From an uncultured Clostridia bacterium (GTDB taxonomy: Bacteria; Bacillota; Clostridia; Christensenellales; Borkfalkiaceae), in NCBI GenBank assembly GCA_947177975.1, contig CAMWWH010000002.1:1-47655 (forward strand): a stretch of 47,655 nt of DNA, in the 5' to 3' direction. The position numbers and the translations under genes were made by a program. Below the pieces are notes generated by a model, which saw nothing but the letters and a program-made list of their open reading frames with translations, made no database searches and had not been told where the DNA came from. Below are positions 40,134 through 47,030 of this stretch, piece after piece. Within the stretch, counting starts at the first letter, position 1. Each line of letters starts with the position of its first letter.

Positions 40134-40170
40134 AGCCCCGCGGCGAAAATTCGCCGCGGGGCTGTTTTTT
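40134..40170. terminator. Terminator of glyA and of the convergent XRE gene
   Basis: A 13-bp stem (agccccgcggcga 40134-40146 and its complement 40151-40163) around AAAT is followed by GTTTTTTT. The T-run reaches the stop codon of the minus-strand regulator gene. Its core resembles terminators at 26085, 40702, 43646 and 46981. Confidence 0.9.
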
Positions 40171-40379
40171 TAATAATCGCTTTTGCCCAACAGATAATCG
40201 ACGGTAACACCGAAATAGTCGCTAATCTTCCATAGCGCCGCCATATCTGGTTCAGTAACGCCGTTTTCCCAATACGAGATTTTACGTTGGGTAAGCCCAA
40301 GCTCTTTTGCAAGCGCCTCTTGCTTCAACCCTCTCTCTTTTCTCAAAGATTTCAGTCTTTCCGCAAACAAAATATTCAT
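40170..40379 (-). CDS. Small XRE-family transcription regulator (module A)
   Basis: The product has 69 residues. It is little more than one helix-turn-helix: LKSLRKERGLKQEALAKELG then LTQRKISYWENG, ending in VDYLLGK. The longer reading to 40553 would run antisense through the divergent small gene and is rejected. A TACAAT box ends 6 bases before the ATG, implying a leaderless mRNA. It is divergent from the small protein gene at 40477, and two palindromic sites lie over both promoters, so it probably represses both itself and that gene. Confidence 0.85.
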   Translation of the reverse strand: MNILFAERLKSLRKERGLKQEALAKELGLTQRKISYWENGVTEPDMAALWKISDYFGVTVDYLLGKSDY

Positions 40380-40385
40380 ACTGAA

Positions 40386-40441
40386 ATTGTAGATAAAAAC
40401 CGTCTTAATTTGTTGACATAGACAAAAACTGTCTGTAAAAT
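40386..40441. promoter_or_regulatory. Divergent promoters with two palindromic operator sites (module A)
   Basis: The plus-strand promoter is TTGACA (40413-40418), 17 bases, TAAAAT (40436-40441). The minus-strand -10 is TACAAT (40391-40386). Two related sites of the form AGAYAAAAACYGTCT lie at 40391-40405 and 40420-40434; the second is a perfect AGACA/TGTCT inverted repeat with a 5-base centre. One site touches the minus -10, the other fills the plus-promoter spacer, as expected for an autoregulating XRE repressor. Confidence 0.7.
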
Positions 40442-40476
40442 ATAGTTTATACAAATTGTTAAAAGGAGTACTGTTT

Positions 40477-40695
40477 ATGGACAAAAAATTTTTAAAAAAG
40501 TTAAGGGAAGAAAAGGAAGCGTATGACGAGCTTAAAAACGAGCCGCCGTTCAAGGGCGAGGAATTTGCGGAAGAGATAGCGCCGCTGTTAGACGACTATT
40601 TCGAAGGTGAATTTCAATTTGACGGAAAAGAGGTAGTATGCAAATTTGCAAACGGTCAGACATTTCTTCTTAAAGCGGAAGAAGTCAAGCAGTAA
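40477..40695 (+). CDS. Small protein of module A (EEIxPLL...NGQxFxL family)
   Basis: The product has 72 residues and no recognised domain. The ATG at 40477 follows AAGGAG; an ATG at 40456 is upstream of that site. After a charged N-terminus (KKLREEKEAYDELK) comes EEIAPLLDDYFEG, then KFANGQTFLLKAEE. The second half aligns with the 59-residue protein at 45470: EEI, PLL, two glycines, NGQ, F and L are shared. Both are divergent from XRE regulators. It is soluble, with no signal or membrane segment. A toxin, antitoxin, or modulator of the regulator are all possible; the sequence does not decide. Confidence 0.75.
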   Translation: MDKKFLKKLREEKEAYDELKNEPPFKGEEFAEEIAPLLDDYFEGEFQFDGKEVVCKFANGQTFLLKAEEVKQ

Positions 40696-40701
40696 TTGGA
40701 A

Positions 40702-40740
40702 AGCCGCGCGGCGAAATTTTTTCGCCGCGCGGCTGTTATT
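40702..40740. terminator. Terminator between the module A small gene and a membrane XRE gene
   Basis: A 15-bp stem of the form agccgcgcggcgaaa (40702-40716) and its complement (40720-40734) is followed by the weak T-run GTTATTATTT. It lies between convergent genes. Confidence 0.75.
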
Positions 40741-41719
40741 ATTTATGATCGTCTTTCGCGTTTAACATTGCGCCTATTATGCCGCAGACAATACCGCCCA
40801 CGGGGAACACTACCCAGCCGGGGTGCCAAAGGTTCCAAACGAATCCGAGCACCAAAAACACCGCCGTCGCCGTCAGCATAATTATGCCGCCCAAAGCGTT
40901 TTTCAGCTTTTCGCGCGGGGAGGGGTTGAGTTCTCTGCCCGTCACCGCATTGTATTCCGAAACGTCGAATTTGGTTTTCTGAATACCTAAATATACAAGC
41001 CCGCATACCGAAACGGCTACTATCAGCAGAAACGCCGCCGTAACGTAGCAGTAGGCGTCGTCGCCTCCGCTTAAAATTTTGTTATCTATAAGCGCGGATA
41101 AAACTACGAGCATAACTACGCCGAGTAAAATGCCCGAAACAAAGCAAGCCATAGCCACGGGAAACCTTTTTGAAAATTTTCGGACTTCGTCTTCGGTAAA
41201 CACGTTTTTCATAACGGGGTGCGCCCTTCTGAACCTGTCGTGGTCAATGCCCGAAAATACAAACAGAAATACCGCAACCGCAGTGCACGCAAGCACGGCA
41301 ACCGCGCCCATTGCAGCCACAAGGTTTGCTGTTTTGCCGGTTAGCGTCTGCGAGTATCCCGCTAAGCCTACGCATGCCGCCACGCCCAGAATAATCAGGA
41401 ATACGCCCAGCGCAATTCTGAGAGAAAACCCGTCCATATGCCGCGCAAAACCGTGTTCGTCGGGGGATATATGCCATTCAATACCCGTTTCCGCGTCTTT
41501 TTCGATTTCCGTCTGGCGGGTTAAATCGCCGCGCAGTAAATCGTCGAGCGATACGTTGAATTTGTCGCAAAGAGCAATAAGCTTTTCCGTTTCGGGGTAC
41601 GCCTCGCCCGTTTCCCATTTCGAAACCGACTGCCTCGACACGTCCAAGCTGTCGGCAAGATCCTCCTGAGTGATACGGTTTTTCTTTCTTAAATAATACA
41701 GGTTTTCGGCAAACGCCAT
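40739..41719 (-). CDS. XRE regulator with a C-terminal membrane domain
   Basis: The product has 326 residues from the ATG at 41719, which follows GGGAGG by 8 bases (a TTG at 41737 lacks one). Residues 1-65 are a helix-turn-helix: NRITQEDLADSLDVSRQSVSKWETG, ending in SLDDLLRGD. About five membrane helices follow (for example LRIALGVFLIILGVAACVG), so the regulator is membrane-bound and may sense an envelope or lipid signal. Direct repeats just upstream of its own promoter (41784-41830) are likely binding sites. Members of this type are common in Clostridia but their signals are mostly unknown. Confidence 0.85.
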   Translation of the reverse strand: MAFAENLYYLRKKNRITQEDLADSLDVSRQSVSKWETGEAYPETEKLIALCDKFNVSLDDLLRGDLTRQTEIEKDAETGIEWHISPDEHGFARHMDGFSLRIALGVFLIILGVAACVGLAGYSQTLTGKTANLVAAMGAVAVLACTAVAVFLFVFSGIDHDRFRRAHPVMKNVFTEDEVRKFSKRFPVAMACFVSGILLGVVMLVVLSALIDNKILSGGDDAYCYVTAAFLLIVAVSVCGLVYLGIQKTKFDVSEYNAVTGRELNPSPREKLKNALGGIIMLTATAVFLVLGFVWNLWHPGWVVFPVGGIVCGIIGAMLNAKDDHK

Positions 41720-41754
41720 TTTGTTTTCCTCCCGCAATTCGGTTTTTCGTAAGT

Positions 41755-41783
41755 ATTGTAAAATCTGCGCGGAAAAATATCAA
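41755..41783 (-). promoter_or_regulatory. Promoter of the membrane XRE gene
   Basis: On the minus strand TTGATA (41783-41778) and TACAAT (41760-41755) are 17 bases apart, followed by a leader of about 28 bases with GGGAGG. Confidence 0.7.
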
Positions 41784-41830
41784 CCAACTTGCGTTAGCAA
41801 TCGAAATTATTCGCGCAACTTGCGGTTGCA
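41784..41830. repeat. Direct repeats upstream of the membrane XRE promoter
   Basis: CAACTTGCGTTAGCA (41785-41799) and CAACTTGCGGTTGCA (41816-41830) differ at two positions and start 31 bases apart, about three turns of the helix. They abut the -35 box of the minus-strand regulator and lie about 35 bases upstream of the DegV promoter, so they may be operators for either. Confidence 0.6.
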
Positions 41831-41865
41831 TTTTTAAAAATTAAGTGAAATAATTGTCGAAAGCA

Positions 41866-41894
41866 TTGTAATTTTTTCGGCGCGGTGTTATTAT
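41866..41894 (+). promoter_or_regulatory. Promoter of the DegV gene
   Basis: TTGTAA (41866-41871) and TATTAT (41889-41894) are 17 bases apart. The ATG at 41902 lies 7 bases beyond the -10 box, so the transcript should begin at or next to the start codon. Confidence 0.68.
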
Positions 41895-41901
41895 CCCGAT
41901 T

Positions 41902-42747
41902 ATGAAAATAAAAATTACGTCGGATTCGACCTGCGATTTAAGTAAAGATTTAATCGAAAGTAATGATATCGGAATATTTCCGCTCACGGTTGTTCTCGGT
42001 GAAAAAAGCTATAAGGACGGTGAAATTGCGCCGTCGGATATTTTTACGTACGTAAAAGAAAACAATCAACTGCCCAAAACGGCGGCGGGTACGTCGGAAG
42101 AGTATGCCGATTTTTTCACCCGCAATATTGAAAATTACGACGCGCTGATACATTTCAACATATCCTCGCAGGCGTCCTCGTCGCACTCGGCGGCTTGCGT
42201 TGCGGCAAAGAATTTCGGCGGCAAGGTGTACGTTATCGACAGCCGCGCTCTGTCGACGGGGCAGGGACTTTTAGTGTTGAAGGCGTGCGATATGGCGCAA
42301 GAGGGACTAACCGCGCAGGAAATCTGCGAAAGCGTTAACGCGCTGAGGATTAAGGTCAACACCTCGTTCGTTCCCGACGCGCTGGACTATCTGCACAAGG
42401 GCGGTCGGTGCTCGCTTGCGGCGCTTATCGGCGCGCGCGTTTTGAAGCTACACCCGATGATATGCGAGAACGAACAGGGTCAGCTCATAGCCAAAAAGAA
42501 GTATATGGGCGGAATGGAGCGGTGCATAAAGACCTACGCCGCCGACCTCAAAGCGGCTTATCCTGCATACGATAAAACACGGTGCTTTATAACTCACAGC
42601 TCGGCGGATAAAGAGCTTGTAGACCTTGCAAAAAACTTAGTCGCGGAGTATTTTGATTTCGATAAAGTGATTGAAACGGTCGCGGGGAGTATAGTCACGA
42701 GCCACTGCGGAAGGAACACTCTGGGTATTCTTTTCATATCCTTGTAA
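41902..42747 (+). CDS. DegV family fatty-acid-binding protein
   Basis: The product has 281 residues, the normal family size. The opening SDSTCDL (7-13), the TAAGTS segment (60-65), the serine-rich NISSQASSSHSAA (86-98) and HKGGRCSLAALIG are family marks; T60 and a serine near 92-94 would hold the fatty acid carboxylate. Such proteins present fatty acids to FakA for phosphorylation (FakB role), linking lipid uptake to phospholipid synthesis; no fakA is in the window. There is no Shine-Dalgarno, and the promoter position implies a leaderless mRNA. Confidence 0.92.
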   Translation: MKIKITSDSTCDLSKDLIESNDIGIFPLTVVLGEKSYKDGEIAPSDIFTYVKENNQLPKTAAGTSEEYADFFTRNIENYDALIHFNISSQASSSHSAACVAAKNFGGKVYVIDSRALSTGQGLLVLKACDMAQEGLTAQEICESVNALRIKVNTSFVPDALDYLHKGGRCSLAALIGARVLKLHPMICENEQGQLIAKKKYMGGMERCIKTYAADLKAAYPAYDKTRCFITHSSADKELVDLAKNLVAEYFDFDKVIETVAGSIVTSHCGRNTLGILFISL

Positions 42748-42754
42748 ATTTTTC

Positions 42755-42783
42755 TTGACAATTCAAAAACGCGGAAATATAAT
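42755..42783 (+). promoter_or_regulatory. Consensus promoter of the FMN riboswitch/ribU unit
   Basis: TTGACA (42755-42760) and TATAAT (42778-42783) are exactly 17 bases apart, a perfect consensus. Transcription would begin near 42790, just ahead of the riboswitch. Confidence 0.9.
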
Positions 42784-42796
42784 CTAACTACAATTT

Positions 42797-42919
42797 AACG
42801 TTCTTTGGGGCGGGGTGCAATTCCCCACCGGCAGTAAAGTCTGCGAAGAGTTTTTAAAACTCCCGATACGGTGTGATTCCGTAACCGACGGTTAAAGTCC
42901 GGATGATAAAAGAATTTTA
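42797..42919 (+). ncRNA. FMN riboswitch (RFN element)
   Basis: The conserved RFN core is visible: a closing stem (ttcttt near 42801 with aaagaat near 42908), GGGGCGGGGTGCAATTCCCC with ACCGGCAGT, an ACTCCCGA segment, and CCGACGGTTAAAGTCCGGATG at the 3' side. It binds FMN and, when bound, favours the downstream terminator, switching off the riboflavin importer gene. It lies between the promoter at 42755 and ribU. Confidence 0.95.
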
Positions 42920-42945
42920 AAGCGGTAATAATATCGTTTTGTTTG

Positions 42946-42974
42946 CGCTCCGAAAATTTTTCGGAGCGTTTTTT
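42946..42974 (+). terminator. Riboswitch-controlled terminator ahead of ribU
   Basis: The stem cgctccgaaaa (42946-42956) and ttttcggagcg (42958-42968) is followed by six T. It is the expression platform of the FMN riboswitch and lies 17 bases before the ribU start. Confidence 0.92.
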
Positions 42975-42990
42975 ATTGCGAGGTGAATTT

Positions 42991-43638
42991 ATGGAAGAGC
43001 AAATTAAAATGAGCAAAGGTCAAGCGTTTAAACAGTACTTTACGGCGACGAGGATATCCTTCCTTGCGGTGTTTACCGCGCTGTCGTTTATTCTTCGGCT
43101 GCCTTGGTTCGAGTTTTATATTATCCCCGCGGTCAGCTTTTTAAAGGTTGATTTCTCGGGCGTGTTCGTGATGATTGCGGGCTTTGCGTTAGGACCCGTC
43201 GCGGGCGTAATCGTAAGCGTGCTCAAAGAAATTCTGTACGGGGTCGCGTTCTCGCAGACGGTGGGAGTAGGCGAGCTTGCAAACATTCTGATTATGCTCC
43301 CGTATATTCTTATCCCGACTATCCTGTACAAGAAATTCAAGGGCATAAAAGCCGTGCTAATAGCCATAGCGGCGGGCTGCGTGTGTCAGGTTGCCTGGTC
43401 GGTGCCCGTCAACTATCTGCTGACCTTTCCGTTCTATCTCAATCTGTACGCGCATATGCCGTGGCGCGCGGGAATGGACTTTTATCTTACGGTATGGTAC
43501 TGGGCTTTCCTTTTCAATTTCGTAAAGACCGTGCTGATATCGGTTGTCACTCTCATAATCTACAAGCCTCTTTCGATGCTGATTAAAAAGACCAACGAGA
43601 AGTTTGCCTCGGTAAAGCGTAAGAAAACAACAGAATAA
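42991..43638 (+). CDS. ribU: Riboflavin ECF transporter S component (RibU)
   Basis: The product has 215 residues. The ATG at 42991 follows GCGAGGTG; a reading from 42943 would overlap the terminator hairpin and is rejected. About five or six hydrophobic helices are present, with the ECF S-component hallmark region FLKVDFSGVFVMIAGFALGPVAG near residues 50-72. It binds riboflavin or FMN precursors in the membrane and is driven by a shared ECF energising module encoded elsewhere. The FMN riboswitch upstream fixes the substrate with good confidence. Confidence 0.94.
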   Translation: MEEQIKMSKGQAFKQYFTATRISFLAVFTALSFILRLPWFEFYIIPAVSFLKVDFSGVFVMIAGFALGPVAGVIVSVLKEILYGVAFSQTVGVGELANILIMLPYILIPTILYKKFKGIKAVLIAIAAGCVCQVAWSVPVNYLLTFPFYLNLYAHMPWRAGMDFYLTVWYWAFLFNFVKTVLISVVTLIIYKPLSMLIKKTNEKFASVKRKKTTE

Positions 43639-43645
43639 AAAAATA

Positions 43646-43682
43646 AGCCCCTCGCGGAAATTTTTCCGCGAGGGGCTGAATT
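43646..43682. terminator. Bidirectional terminator between ribU and the SPFH gene
   Basis: A 15-bp stem (agcccctcgcggaaa 43646-43660, complement 43663-43677) is preceded by an A-run. The plus side has only a modest T content (GAATTTATTT); the minus side runs into T-rich sequence. Confidence 0.83.
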
Positions 43683-43685
43683 TAT

Positions 43686-44786
43686 TTAATTATTGGGATT
43701 TGTGGGAACGGGTATCATAATATTGCCGTTGTCGCCCGTCACGACCTGAGGCAGCTTGCCGTCCCATTTTGCGAGATATTCGAGGTATTCCATATACTCG
43801 ATTAACAGCTTTTTGGACGCTTCGGCTTCCGCACCGGTGCCCCATTCGATTTCGTAAATAGTTTCCTCGCCCTCGGTGGTAGAGGTCACGGTATAGCCCA
43901 TCGAACGTGCAAGTTCGACGATTTTAATCTTGGTTGCGTACGCTTCTGCGGAGGCGATTAACTTCTGAGCTTCCGCGTCCGCCTTGGCGACTTCGATTTT
44001 CGCTTCGGCTTGCTTTTTGGCAACTTCCAATTCCTTGTCGGCGTTGATAATCGCCGTTTCCTTTTCGTACTGCGCCTTCAGCTTTTCCTGTTCGGCAATC
44101 ATCTTGTCCTCGACCGTCTTTTCGAACGCGGCGGTAAAGTCTATGTTCGTGAGAACGACGGTGTTAATGGTCGCATAATAACCCTTGTCGATTGCCGCTT
44201 TAACCGCTTCTTCGACTTTTTCGGTTGCCGTCGCGCGGTTTTCGATAACTTCCATTGCCGAGTAGTCGGCAAGCACGGCTTTGGCTTTGCCCTCGGTCAC
44301 ACTCTTGATTTTGACCGAAAGAGCGTCGAGGCTGCCGTAGTTGTTGGCGATTTCCAAAGCTCTGGCTACGTCCATCTGGTACTGAACGTTGATTAAAATG
44401 TCCATCGACTGACCGTCTTTCGAGTAGGTGTTCGCGTTGATGTTCAGGTTCTGCACCTTGGAATCGTATCTGTCGTACTTTTCGGTTATCCAGAAATCGA
44501 AGTACGTGCCCGCCGTACGTACGGAACGCGCTTCGCCGAGGTGCTTGACGACGGCGATTTCACCCGCGTTGACGGTGTGAAAGCTGAAGGGGATAAACAG
44601 GAAAAGTATAAACGCAACGAGCGCCGCGCCCGCGGACAAGCCGCCCGCAAGCGGTTTTCTGACCGTCGCGCCGCCGCTCCTGCGCATAGCAAACGGTTTT
44701 TTGCCCGTGAGAAAGAGTACGGCTAAAGCCGCGCAGATTACGAAGGCGATTGCAAAAACAAAACCCAAGATAATTCCGATTGTCAT
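43686..44786 (-). CDS. SPFH/band 7 (prohibitin-like) membrane protein
   Basis: The product has 366 residues. Two N-terminal membrane helices (about 4-26 and 50-68) are followed by a band 7 domain (about 70-245) starting FHTVNAGEIAVVKHLGEARSV, then a long alanine- and glutamate-rich coiled coil (about 225-295). Such proteins form large rings on membranes and shield or regulate proteases and other membrane proteins. The C-terminus (about 295-366) is not recognised. AAGGAG precedes the ATG. It is monocistronic with its own promoter; no NfeD-type partner gene is adjacent. Confidence 0.9.
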   Translation of the reverse strand: MTIGIILGFVFAIAFVICAALAVLFLTGKKPFAMRRSGGATVRKPLAGGLSAGAALVAFILFLFIPFSFHTVNAGEIAVVKHLGEARSVRTAGTYFDFWITEKYDRYDSKVQNLNINANTYSKDGQSMDILINVQYQMDVARALEIANNYGSLDALSVKIKSVTEGKAKAVLADYSAMEVIENRATATEKVEEAVKAAIDKGYYATINTVVLTNIDFTAAFEKTVEDKMIAEQEKLKAQYEKETAIINADKELEVAKKQAEAKIEVAKADAEAQKLIASAEAYATKIKIVELARSMGYTVTSTTEGEETIYEIEWGTGAEAEASKKLLIEYMEYLEYLAKWDGKLPQVVTGDNGNIMIPVPTNPNN

Positions 44787-44820
44787 TGTTGATAATCTCC
44801 TTAATATTTTTTACAAGTAT

Positions 44821-44850
44821 ATGATAACAGTAAAATGCGGTTTCCGTCAA
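44821..44850 (-). promoter_or_regulatory. Putative promoter of the SPFH gene
   Basis: On the minus strand TTGACG (44850-44845) and TATCAT (44826-44821) are 18 bases apart, about 35 bases before the ATG at 44786. Confidence 0.5.
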
Positions 44851-44891
44851 TGCACAAATTCTGTAAAAAATACGAGAAAGTCGCGGATTGT

Positions 44892-45323
44892 TCAGCTTTC
44901 GCGCCCGAGGATAAAATCAACTCGGCAATCAAACTCGTCGGCAAGGTCGATAATGTTTTTAAGCGTGGGCTTGTGTTCACCTCTGAGCCAGCTATAATAT
45001 GCCGTCTTTGAAATTTTAGTTCCGTTATAAAAACGGTAAGAGGAGCATTTGAAATGCTTTTTCAAAAATGCAAGCTGTTCTGAAAATGGCGGGCAAGGCT
45101 TAAAAATCAAATTTTGTTTTTCCGTTTCTCTGCCCAAAAGAAAGTCTACCGAACAGTTATAATAGTCGGCAATTTTTAATATAGTTTCTACGGTTGGTTC
45201 GCGCTCATCGTTCGAATAGTAAGTAAGGCAAGACGCGGAAATACCTATTTTAGCGGCAGTTTCTTTAAGGTTTAATCCGCTATCGGAAATCAAATCCGAA
45301 AGTGTTTCACTCAGTTTCGACAT
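44892..45323 (-). CDS. XRE-type regulator with two tandem helix-turn-helix domains (module B)
   Basis: The product has 143 residues. The first HTH covers about 1-66 (GLNLKETAAKIGISASCLTYYS, ending VDFLLGRE) and a second, more divergent one about 78-143 (ISKTAYYSWLRGEHKPT, ending VDFILGRES). Both halves share the V-D-F/Y-L/I-L-G ending of the module A regulator at 40170, suggesting duplication of one HTH unit. It is divergent from the 59-residue gene at 45470, with an inverted repeat between them, so it likely controls that gene. GAGGAA precedes the ATG. Confidence 0.8.
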   Translation of the reverse strand: MSKLSETLSDLISDSGLNLKETAAKIGISASCLTYYSNDEREPTVETILKIADYYNCSVDFLLGRETEKQNLIFKPCPPFSEQLAFLKKHFKCSSYRFYNGTKISKTAYYSWLRGEHKPTLKNIIDLADEFDCRVDFILGRES

Positions 45324-45361
45324 AATTCCTCAAAAGTAGTGTTTTTTCTACAATTTATTCT

Positions 45362-45413
45362 GTGCTAACCTGCGAATTTTCACTTGCAAATTATCAAGTT
45401 AGCACGGTATAAT
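45362..45413 (+). promoter_or_regulatory. Module B promoter with a long-armed inverted repeat operator
   Basis: TTGCAA (45384-45389) and TATAAT (45408-45413) are 18 bases apart. A perfect inverted repeat, GTGCTAAC (45362-45369) and GTTAGCAC (45398-45405), flanks the -35 region; the right arm ends 2 bases before the -10 box. This is where the divergent XRE regulator would be expected to bind. Confidence 0.7.
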
Positions 45414-45469
45414 GTAAGTACACAAAAGATTGCGCAACAAATGTGAAAAAATACTAAGGAGGTTTAATT

Positions 45470-45649
45470 ATGGTCAAAGCATTAAAAGATGCAATAAACG
45501 AAAAAGGTATAACGGGCAAATCGATAGTGGAAGAAATAGAGCCGCTTTTGAAAGAGGTTTACAGAGGAAGCGTGGAAATAAGCGGCGACTGTCTTATTAT
45601 CAGATTTTTAAACGGTCAGGTTTTTAAGCTGTCGGCGGTTGAACAATAA
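45470..45649 (+). CDS. Small protein of module B (EEIxPLL...NGQxFxL family)
   Basis: The product has 59 residues, which makes it easy to overlook. The ATG at 45470 follows a strong AAGGAGG. The protein reads MVKALKDAINEKG, then IVEEIEPLLKEVYRG and IRFLNGQVFKLSAVEQ at the end. These last two blocks align with the 72-residue protein at 40477 (EEI-PLL, G, G, F-NGQ-F-L). Both genes are divergent from XRE regulators and preceded by palindromic sites, so the two loci look like copies of one module. No known domain is recognised; its role is open. Confidence 0.8.
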   Translation: MVKALKDAINEKGITGKSIVEEIEPLLKEVYRGSVEISGDCLIIRFLNGQVFKLSAVEQ

Positions 45650-45653
45650 ACGC

Positions 45654-45682
45654 TTGCAACTTACCCCGAACAGTGATATAAT
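45654..45682 (+). promoter_or_regulatory. Promoter of the zinc-ribbon membrane protein gene
   Basis: TTGCAA (45654-45659) and TATAAT (45677-45682) are 17 bases apart, starting only 5 bases after the small gene's stop codon. A CGGGAG ribosome binding site follows near 45703. Confidence 0.75.
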
Positions 45683-45715
45683 ATAATATATTGATTTAAC
45701 TTTCGGGAGTAAGCA

Positions 45716-46969
45716 ATGGCAAGGGTTAATTGTAAGGCGTGCGGAGCGTCAATGAATACGGCTTTTTATATCTGCCCGCAGTGCGGAGTGAAAAGAGCGG
45801 ACAGAGAGCTGCTTAAAGACGTGAATATTGCGTACAACGCCGACGATTCGCAAGCGGCGCGCCTTTTTTATAACGACGTTTTAGCCGCCGACCCTATAAA
45901 CGCCGAGGCTTACTGGGGATTGTTTTTGCTTGATTTCGGTTTAAAAGACAAGATAGAAAGCGACGGCATTACACAGAGGCGCATTACGGCTGAAAACTTT
46001 ATATATAAGAAACTGACCGCACAGCTTTACGACAGAATATATGCAAACGAAAGCTATCTGAAAGCGCTGAGCCTTGCAGACGGTGATTTCAAAAGGCGCG
46101 TCGACACGTTTTGGCGCGGACTCGAAGACCGCTACGGCGAGATTAAACGCGAACGCGCCGAAAAACAATTCGAAAAACGTACGGACGCGGTGCTGTCGGA
46201 ACCGAAAAAATCCTCGAAAATAACTGCGGGTAAATTGGTGACGTCGATTTTATGTTGCTTACCCGTAATTCTGGAATTGCTCCTCGTGTTACTCATTCCG
46301 CATATAGGCGTTCTTGCGGGAAACACGTACGTGGCAAGGTGGGGTTGGCAGGAGCTTTCCCTGCCTATGAAGATTTCGTTTTTAAGCGTGATTATTCTCG
46401 GCTTCGTCATACAGGTACTTGGACTTTTCAGAAAACTGCATAAAGTGCTGGGTATGTTTACGCAAATCATATCGTTCGGCTTGTTCGTGCTTTCGGCTTA
46501 CGCACTGTACGACAACGCCTCGTCGGTATATATTCAGTGGGGCTTGGCGATGATGGTGCCCGTGTCGCTGCTCGTTACGGCGCTGCGGTATGCGTCCGCC
46601 GACGGCTTCGGCTTTATCGACGATTTCAATTTCTGGTATTTTCTGCCGATTGCTCTCGAAGTCGCGGAATATATTTTATTCTTCCTCGTGTTCCGCACCA
46701 TATTCGGAGTATCCGCTCAGCTGTGGTTCTTCGTTGCGATTACCGTTACGACGGTAGCTTCGGTTGCCGTTTCATCCTTCTGGGAAGATTTCCATTGGGC
46801 GCCCGTGGGAATTAACCTTGCGGTTGCCGTGCTCTTATGCGTGATTTTCTGGATAGGCAGAATGGTTTCAAGCGAATGGTTTGCAAACGGCGGCGTAATC
46901 ACCGTGGTTATCCTTGCAATAGGCGGCTCCTGGTTTATCCACTGGTTTATTCACAGAAACGACCCTTAA
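45716..46969 (+). CDS. Zinc-ribbon, TPR-like and multi-helix membrane protein of unknown function
   Basis: The product has 417 residues. A zinc ribbon opens it (C6, C9, C20, C23), followed by a helical segment resembling a TPR unit (about 34-75: AARLFYNDVLAADPINAEAYWGL). From about residue 180 there are six or seven membrane helices. Zinc-ribbon plus TPR-like plus membrane proteins are common and uncharacterised in Clostridia. The gene has its own promoter and a strong terminator, so it is a single unit. Confidence 0.75.
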   Translation: MARVNCKACGASMNTAFYICPQCGVKRADRELLKDVNIAYNADDSQAARLFYNDVLAADPINAEAYWGLFLLDFGLKDKIESDGITQRRITAENFIYKKLTAQLYDRIYANESYLKALSLADGDFKRRVDTFWRGLEDRYGEIKRERAEKQFEKRTDAVLSEPKKSSKITAGKLVTSILCCLPVILELLLVLLIPHIGVLAGNTYVARWGWQELSLPMKISFLSVIILGFVIQVLGLFRKLHKVLGMFTQIISFGLFVLSAYALYDNASSVYIQWGLAMMVPVSLLVTALRYASADGFGFIDDFNFWYFLPIALEVAEYILFFLVFRTIFGVSAQLWFFVAITVTTVASVAVSSFWEDFHWAPVGINLAVAVLLCVIFWIGRMVSSEWFANGGVITVVILAIGGSWFIHWFIHRNDP

Positions 46970-46980
46970 AAGTTATTTAA

Positions 46981-47020
46981 AAAGCCCCCTCGCGAAAAAT
47001 TTTCGCGAGGGGGCTTTATG
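46981..47020 (+). terminator. Strong intrinsic terminator after the zinc-ribbon gene
   Basis: A perfect 18-bp stem (46981-46998 and 47000-47017), of the form aaagccccctcgcgaaaa, lies 11 bases after the stop codon. It belongs to the family of similar palindromes noted in this window. The T content after the stem is short. Confidence 0.85.
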
Positions 47021-47030
47021 TCTATATAAT

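Follow-up and report, generated by a model that had tools for sequence, protein, structure and literature searches.

Each of two loci in the stretch of DNA analysed here pairs an XRE regulator gene with a divergent gene for a very small protein, and we find that both belong to a dispersed family of such pairs, in which regulator and small gene have apparently been exchanged independently of each other. The stretch, which we call the window, comprises 47,655 nucleotides from an uncultured Clostridia bacterium of the Borkfalkiaceae and is contig C2 of a 1.47-Mb assembly (107 contigs; 80% complete). We propose, with a rough probability of 0.55, that each pair is a mobile, self-contained, autorepressed cassette whose regulator gates transcription and whose small acidic protein is a payload independent of the regulator. 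The two pairs, A (40170-40695) and B (44892-45649), lie where an earlier note on this sequence had placed them, with small proteins of 72 and 59 amino acids (aa). New beyond that note are the two helix-turn-helix (HTH) domains of regulator B and the finding that relatives have the matching sites without the cassettes.

Small genes facing XRE regulators

The two small proteins are related, with the EEIxPLL and NGQxFxL motifs in common that the earlier note had pointed out. BLASTP finds 19 of 49 positions identical (expect value, E, of 1e-12 in that single comparison), and a query of its own genome with small B retrieves small A at E 1e-6. The same genome has a third small gene elsewhere (G000:C47:10739-10927), likewise divergent from an XRE gene of its own (67 aa), and the two in the window appear to have inserted separately. 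Thus, the copies are homologous, as the word 'duplicated' in the note implied, but 'dispersed family' describes them better. The family core reads approximately LLxEIxxLLxDYFxGxxxxxGxxIxxxFxNGQKFxLxVxE and is preceded by a variable N-terminus.

At E 0.01, a 24-member profile of the small protein finds 103 places within the genus, in 59 of its 93 genomes, including 40 of the 61 most complete ones. Across the order, the same profile at E 0.001 detects members in 43 of 396 genomes, which represent 19 of 142 genera. One early match, within a 649-aa frame (L013), was considered spurious and excluded before members were aligned. With a 73-member core profile at E 1e-4, only 3 of 391 genomes drawn from the class have it, all three from the bacterium's own family. 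Scans of Pfam, PHROGs, NCBIfam, PADLOC and PDB sequences, which covered 73 of 95 trimmed cores and, at full length, the window copies only, gave stray or sub-threshold matches. At E 0.01, the 73 cores had no match in PHROGs, two stray matches in Pfam (DUF397 in 0 of 73) and one in NCBIfam, and neither small A nor small B matched PADLOC. The absence of a recognised domain, already remarked on in the earlier note, is thus borne out: there is no convincing match in Pfam, NCBIfam or PHROGs. The same scans show no known toxin or antitoxin family, and we saw no account of the small-protein family or the cassette in the open-access literature that we searched.

The small gene is real and under purifying selection, because the ratio of nonsynonymous to synonymous substitution rates (dN/dS) is 0.07-0.23 in 11 of 13 module pairs with related regulators; several of these are near dS saturation, and the six with dS of 0.5-1.5 give 0.11-0.17. 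One of the remaining two pairs is saturated, and the other is nearly identical with few changes (0.61). Small proteins are acidic, with a median isoelectric point of 4.8 and a negative charge in 92% of 155 (last 60 residues). From the sequence pattern, the payload would be an acidic protein of about 55-80 aa with one helix and about three strands. Small genes can also occur several to a contig. Two equal-scoring ones lie in opposite orientation about 18 kb apart at G095:C15 (4953-5099 and 23234-23380), perhaps as an inverted duplication, and three consecutive ones, spaced at about 0.7-0.85 kb, lie at L170 (G154:C26) with one-HTH XRE genes nearby.

Most small genes face an XRE gene. Among the fetched loci, a divergent XRE gene lies within 450 base pairs (bp) at 131 of 155 distinct small-gene places, compared with 5 of 140 on the downstream side. 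A profile search of the kind that the earlier note proposed thus finds homologues mostly with an XRE neighbour rather than without one. The paired regulators comprise 105 two-HTH and 26 one-HTH proteins. Open reading frames (ORFs) at the other 24 places, judged by eye, include two with a diverged divergent XRE gene, seven with an XRE gene in another layout, one at a contig end and 14 small genes alone. Two points weigh against our proposal: these 14 small genes have no XRE gene within the stretch examined by reading, and the XRE profile was itself built from the same loci, starting at regulator A. Upstream of small genes without a regulator (L045, L059, L116, L124, L127, L160 and others), TTCGACAAA-like motifs recur, as seen by eye. 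By eye, too, these look like the leader found with paired regulators (on the regulator strand, TTGTAGAAA or TTGTCGAA), and such genes may be former pairs.

The reciprocal count, made in the genus on the 132 listed matches of at least 79 bits (those below 75 bits were left out), shows that the link is specific. Among the matches listed, 69 of 96 two-HTH regulators of at least 140 bits face a small gene within 600 bp (65 of 96 within 450 bp), whereas only 2 of 34 in the next score band and 0 of 2 below it do so. Those 69 regulators correspond to 65 distinct small genes, as some are second members of tandem regulators. We inspected 20 of the 23 unpaired, non-tandem two-HTH regulators above 140 bits. 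Some face other genes, and several others have no clear gene in view. Regulators at L200, L205 and L208, which have no small gene, face a family of 150-250 aa with a FALPQGF-like motif, and that at L214 faces a DUF4085-like protein (E 2.9e-5, just above the cut-off), of which a relative was seen by eye in L213. Therefore, no single target defines the regulator family. Members of the FALPQGF-like family also occur downstream of the small gene in L043, L050 and L073; the two members scanned have no Pfam match above cut-off.

Among the regulators scanned, no domain was found besides the HTHs. RstR (NF041951) is the best-scoring named NCBIfam family for the HTH of both window regulators (60.7 and 67.0 bits; cut-off 80), and all matches of both to NCBIfam antitoxin HTH models are below the cut-offs. 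The VDYLLG-like ending that the note had used to link the two regulators is present, but it recurs in most two-HTH relatives aligned and says little about these two.

A probable four-part operator between two putative promoters

Regions between regulator and small gene are rich in inverted repeats. Arms of at least 8 bp occur in 70 of 129 intergenic regions, against 18.4 (standard deviation, SD, 4.0) in shuffles, and arms of at least 10 bp in 21 of 129, against 2.0. The better two-HTH regions have a single layout: an ATTATC-like left box, an outer and an inner half-site, the centre (often CTTGC when regions are aligned by palindrome centre), the mirror half-sites and a TATAAT box. The left box would be the regulator's own -10 on the opposite strand. 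In the clearer two-HTH pairs, the four-part palindrome thus fills the gap between two face-to-face -10 boxes. This geometry is tightly held among the 63 two-HTH regions with a good palindrome: the TATAAT-like box starts 23.5-25 bp from the centre in 56, and the left box ends 21.5-22 bp from it in 41. Note that these 63 were picked from 103 by a high palindrome score, which inflates their symmetry; the shuffles chose centres in the same way. Best scores in two-HTH regions average 13.0 out of about 19 (shuffles: 10.8, SD 1.0), and 61% exceed the shuffled 95th percentile. By the same four-part score, 23% of one-HTH regions are above it. A short, simple palindrome score is not raised over shuffles in two-HTH regions.

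The operator is probably read directly by the two HTH domains, and our main support for this is covariation between recognition helices and half-sites. In partial Mantel tests corrected for the rest of the protein (100 of the 103 modules entered, 85 kept), the recognition helix of HTH1 correlates with the inner half-site (r 0.16, p 0.002) more than with the outer (r 0.05, p 0.064), and that of HTH2 with the outer (r 0.27, p 0.002) more than with the inner (r 0.09, p 0.002). By position, HTH1 covaries most with inner positions 9-12, and HTH2 with outer positions 18-19. With one half-site for each of its four HTH domains, a dimer of regulator B would accordingly contact the inner pair through HTH1 and the outer pair through HTH2, and would cover the space between the two -10 boxes. 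From a single palindromic operator, the XRE protein would then repress two face-to-face promoters, its own and that of the small gene.

Operator B, GTGCTAAC-N28-GTTAGCAC, is a strong palindrome with one exact place in its own genome; no further site was found there, and the only other match needs 3 mismatches (a reversed control pattern gave 3 per strand). The TATAAT of small B starts 24.5 bp from its centre, the same geometry as in other two-HTH pairs. The earlier note had placed a palindromic site over each promoter. This holds well for operator B, but the site of cassette A, AGACA-N5-TGTCT (40420-40434), is weak, with arms of 5 bp found by eye inside the 17-bp promoter spacer. As to the suggestion that the copies may be insulated from each other, the operators differ between copies and track the recognition helices of their regulators, in line with insulation.

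Several results weigh against this picture of the operator. Of the two-HTH regions, 40 of 103 fall below the palindrome score used. One-HTH regions have a mean short-palindrome score of 8.1, against 7.4 in shuffles, with 2 of 26 above the 95th percentile, and because this is barely raised, the operator of cassette A rests mainly on reading. In the Mantel tests, HTH2 also correlates with the inner half-site, single positions stray (16 for HTH1; 1, 7 and 8 for HTH2), and the permutations do not model the tree. The position of the operator leads us to infer repression rather than activation; regulators do activate in TF-smORF modules (PMC10432266) and in the WhiJ9-iosA case (PMC10294661), which also counts against our reading.

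Apparent independent exchange of regulator and small gene

Conserved loci provide cases of exchange in both directions. At L053 (G008) and L149 (G094), the regulators are 96% identical in aa sequence, while the small proteins are only 33-40% identical. There are two changes between the -10 boxes, the flanks are mostly about 80-97% identical (60-base windows), and the small gene has been replaced from about the Shine-Dalgarno sequence to the stop codon. The reverse is seen at L103/L104, where the small proteins are 68-73% identical and the downstream sequence 86%, but the regulators are only 40% identical and the operator is another one; the break lies at the Shine-Dalgarno sequence. The closest regulators to that of L104 are those of L117, L054 and L046, which lie at other loci and whose operators share CAGC(T/G)AAA. 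Other cases of this sort are L113/L115, L111/L125, L066/L114, L043/L050 and L074/L075; replacement is less sure in the last, as the L075 regulator is about equally near its syntenic partner and others. At loci other than L053/L149, a retained small gene faces regulators 25-47% identical.

The same pattern appears in identity classes, although the module pairs counted are not independent. Small genes at least 70% identical go with regulators at most 50% identical in 9 of 19 module pairs, and regulators 70-90% identical go with small proteins at most 45% identical in 17 of 30 (background 27%). Only 31 of 128 modules find their nearest regulator and their nearest small protein in one and the same other module, a comparison that is noisy for 60-aa proteins and made on non-independent pairs. 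The other side of the balance includes that noise, a weak correlation between small-protein and regulator similarity (r 0.13, p 0.008), which linkage or some co-adaptation would predict, and several of the 34 syntenic pairs that keep both genes (for example, L056/L103 and L079/L081). The exchange claim does not need 18 of these 34.

Exchange of both halves fits a DNA-acting regulator that travels with its own operator and a payload that does not touch it; a neutralising pair, or an antirepressor specific to its regulator, accounts for it less well. As indirect evidence from sequence comparison, it speaks against small protein and regulator being cognate partners, either as toxin and antitoxin or as antirepressor and repressor. 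The earlier note had offered a toxin or antitoxin, or a ligand of the regulator, as possible roles; neither is supported, as regulator with operator and small gene appear to exchange independently at conserved loci.

The alternative that survives best, though we regard it as unlikely, is an antirepressor switch, in which the small protein would bind its own XRE regulator and lift repression at a bistable locus. SinR/SinI and RstR/RstC provide the model logic. A small acidic partner beside an XRE regulator, overlapping divergent promoters and the sub-threshold proximity of both regulators to RstR all suit it. However, a regulator that is 96% identical in L053 and L149 would have to answer to very different small proteins, a kept small gene would have to bind regulators as little as 25-47% identical, and the similarity among small proteins shows no significant correlation with that among recognition helices (r 0.04, p 0.16, and r 0.03, p 0.25). 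In a variant, the small protein may contact a surface common to the regulators. Covariation of the small protein with those helices was also examined with DNA mimicry in mind and is not seen.

Somewhat less probable again is a toxin-antitoxin pair, with the small protein as toxin and the XRE protein as repressor and neutralising antitoxin. These are sporadic, multi-copy, two-gene modules with an XRE gene, they are missing at relatives' matching sites, and XRE-DUF397 pairs were predicted to be toxin-antitoxin systems on similar grounds (PMC2701414). Yet the genes are divergent rather than in one operon, the small protein is acidic and lacks a toxin family match, small genes occur without an XRE gene, and a neutralising pair should not tolerate independent swaps. 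Moreover, fourteen XRE-DUF397 pairs overexpressed in Streptomyces did not act as toxin-antitoxin systems (PMC10364602).

Improbable, finally, is activation of the small gene by the XRE protein, with the small protein targeting a further protein, for instance the repressor of a prophage. TF-smORF modules have the same layout of a regulator and a divergent small gene without known domains (PMC10432266). Here, however, the half-sites occupy the interval between -35 and -10 and abut both -10 boxes, a position typical of a repressor. Downstream genes show no conservation, with 99 of 133 being singletons, and no relative turned up in viral contigs, where A and B were searched for close relatives only, or in phages, searched with A.

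We therefore return to the autorepressed cassette with its independent payload. As the scanned regulators have no domain besides their HTHs, payload expression would be tied to the absence of the repressor, whether through loss or degradation or because it is still to be made, as when a cassette has only just entered a new cell. Payload action would be independent of which regulator controls its gene. By analogy with the small proteins of phage TF-smORF modules, the payload would most likely bind and modulate another protein; this is the least secure step of the scheme. A bolder extension, which we consider doubtful, is that these are a class of chromosomal cassettes whose repressor-operator and payload halves recombine freely near the payload start codon. 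The fixed promoter geometry would let repressors diversify four half-sites, so that co-resident copies avoid cross-talk, and the payloads would be diversifying small acidic proteins released by zygotic induction in a naive cell, their diversity kept by conflict with phages or competing elements.

The window copies and known systems

Features of both copies are collected in Table 1. A longer ORF for regulator A is possible from a TTG at 40553 and would overlap the small A gene. Genomes G092 and G011 have no match to the 24-member profile of the small gene, and both keep glyA, degV, the transporter, the band-7 gene and the aldolase-like gene (47130) without cassette B; of these neighbours, the band-7 gene alone was scanned, and the other labels were given by eye. 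The G092 match runs to window position 44895 and resumes at 47030. Between glyA and degV, G011 has about 230 bases and no cassette A, and G092 has a different 138-aa ORF in its place. G092 also has, between these genes, a hairpin closely related to that on the right of cassette A (97% over 38 bases). Terminator-like hairpins lie on both sides of cassette A and at the right edge of segment B (about 46981-47017), the left edge of which lies in the spacer beside the band-7 gene.

Table 1. Features of cassettes A and B and their surroundings in the window
Feature	Position	Strand	Basis
Terminator-like hairpin after glyA, left of cassette A	40134..40172	+	by eye
XRE-A, single-HTH regulator, 69 aa from its ATG	40170..40379	-	HTH_3, E 1.9e-18
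Putative promoter of small A (TTGACA, 17 bp, TAAAAT)	40413..40441	+	by eye
Small A, 72 aa, payload family member, ATG at 40477	40477..40695	+	ORF with Shine-Dalgarno; profile match 8.8e-24 (sequence itself in profile)
Second terminator-like hairpin, right of cassette A	40702..40735	+	sequence reading and G092 comparison
XRE-B, two-HTH regulator, 143 aa (tandem domains at about residues 8-66 and 81-139)	44892..45323	-	two HTH_3 stretches, the second (81-139) also found in NCBIfam; aligned with 32 relatives
Segment present in window, absent at matching place in G092 and G011	44896..47029	.	genome comparison
Operator B (putative), outer half-sites GTGCTAAC / GTTAGCAC, centre 45383.5	45362..45405	.	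inner half-sites imperfect, by eye
Putative promoter of small B: -35 TTGCAA (45384-45389), -10 TATAAT (45408-45413)	45384..45413	+	by reading
Small B, 59 aa, payload family member, ATG at 45470	45470..45649	+	ORF with AAGGAGG; profile match 1.7e-19 (sequence itself in profile)
417-aa protein, zinc-ribbon-like start, hydrophobic stretches	45716..46969	+	by eye; all Pfam matches below cut-off; shares segment with cassette B

The 417-aa gene was considered as part of cassette B, since the same segment is missing from relatives, and rejected, as no relative occurs at any other fetched locus; the protein is probably not part of the cassette. A common downstream partner gene was likewise sought and rejected, given the 99 singletons among 133 neighbours. 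Phage origin is not supported by the viral and phage searches, in which 17 viral loci fetched with the regulator contained no small-protein relative; neither plasmids nor phage genes beside the cassettes were searched for. Small genes lie within about 2 kb of glyA in G000, G064, G005 and G007, and a two-HTH regulator does so in G078, so the glyA region is a possible preferred landing place. A further XRE regulator (40739-41737), with an extended hydrophobic C-terminal region, adjoins cassette A inside the glyA-degV interval that varies among relatives. Elsewhere in the window, an FMN riboswitch (42797-42918; Rfam RF00050, 108.3 bits) precedes a transporter gene labelled by eye as RibU-like (42943-43638).

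Our findings give an uncatalogued small-protein family a genetic context. They also offer, from sequence alone, a specificity code with many natural variants in the probable reading of a four-part operator by a two-HTH XRE regulator. Furthermore, the swapping of regulators and target genes makes a case against the usual toxin-antitoxin guess for pairs of XRE regulators and small proteins.

Three known systems are closest. RstR-type phage repressors (NF041951), the best-scoring named family for both regulators, match below the cut-off, and regulator B differs in having two HTH domains. In Streptomyces, the XRE-DUF397 (WhiJ/BldB) modules likewise combine an XRE regulator with a small partner in multiple copies, and were initially predicted to be toxin-antitoxin systems (PMC10294661, PMC10364602, PMC2701414). 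However, DUF397 is another family, found in Actinobacteria and often downstream of the regulator, and WhiJ9 binds direct repeats and is needed for iosA activation (PMC10294661). TF-smORF modules (Silpe et al., Nature 2023, PMC10432266) come nearest in layout: a regulator, in some cases an XRE protein working with LuxR, controls a divergent small protein without predictable domains, and the modules are little alike in sequence, just as the cassettes here set a regulator gene divergent from that of a small protein without known domains at 131 of 155 places. Those modules belong to linear plasmid-like prophages; their regulator is an activator, and what the small protein inactivates there is the phage's own cI repressor. 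The cassettes described here, in contrast, lie on chromosomal contigs among varied neighbours, have no phage relative in our searches, often have a two-HTH regulator and show the operator geometry of a repressor.

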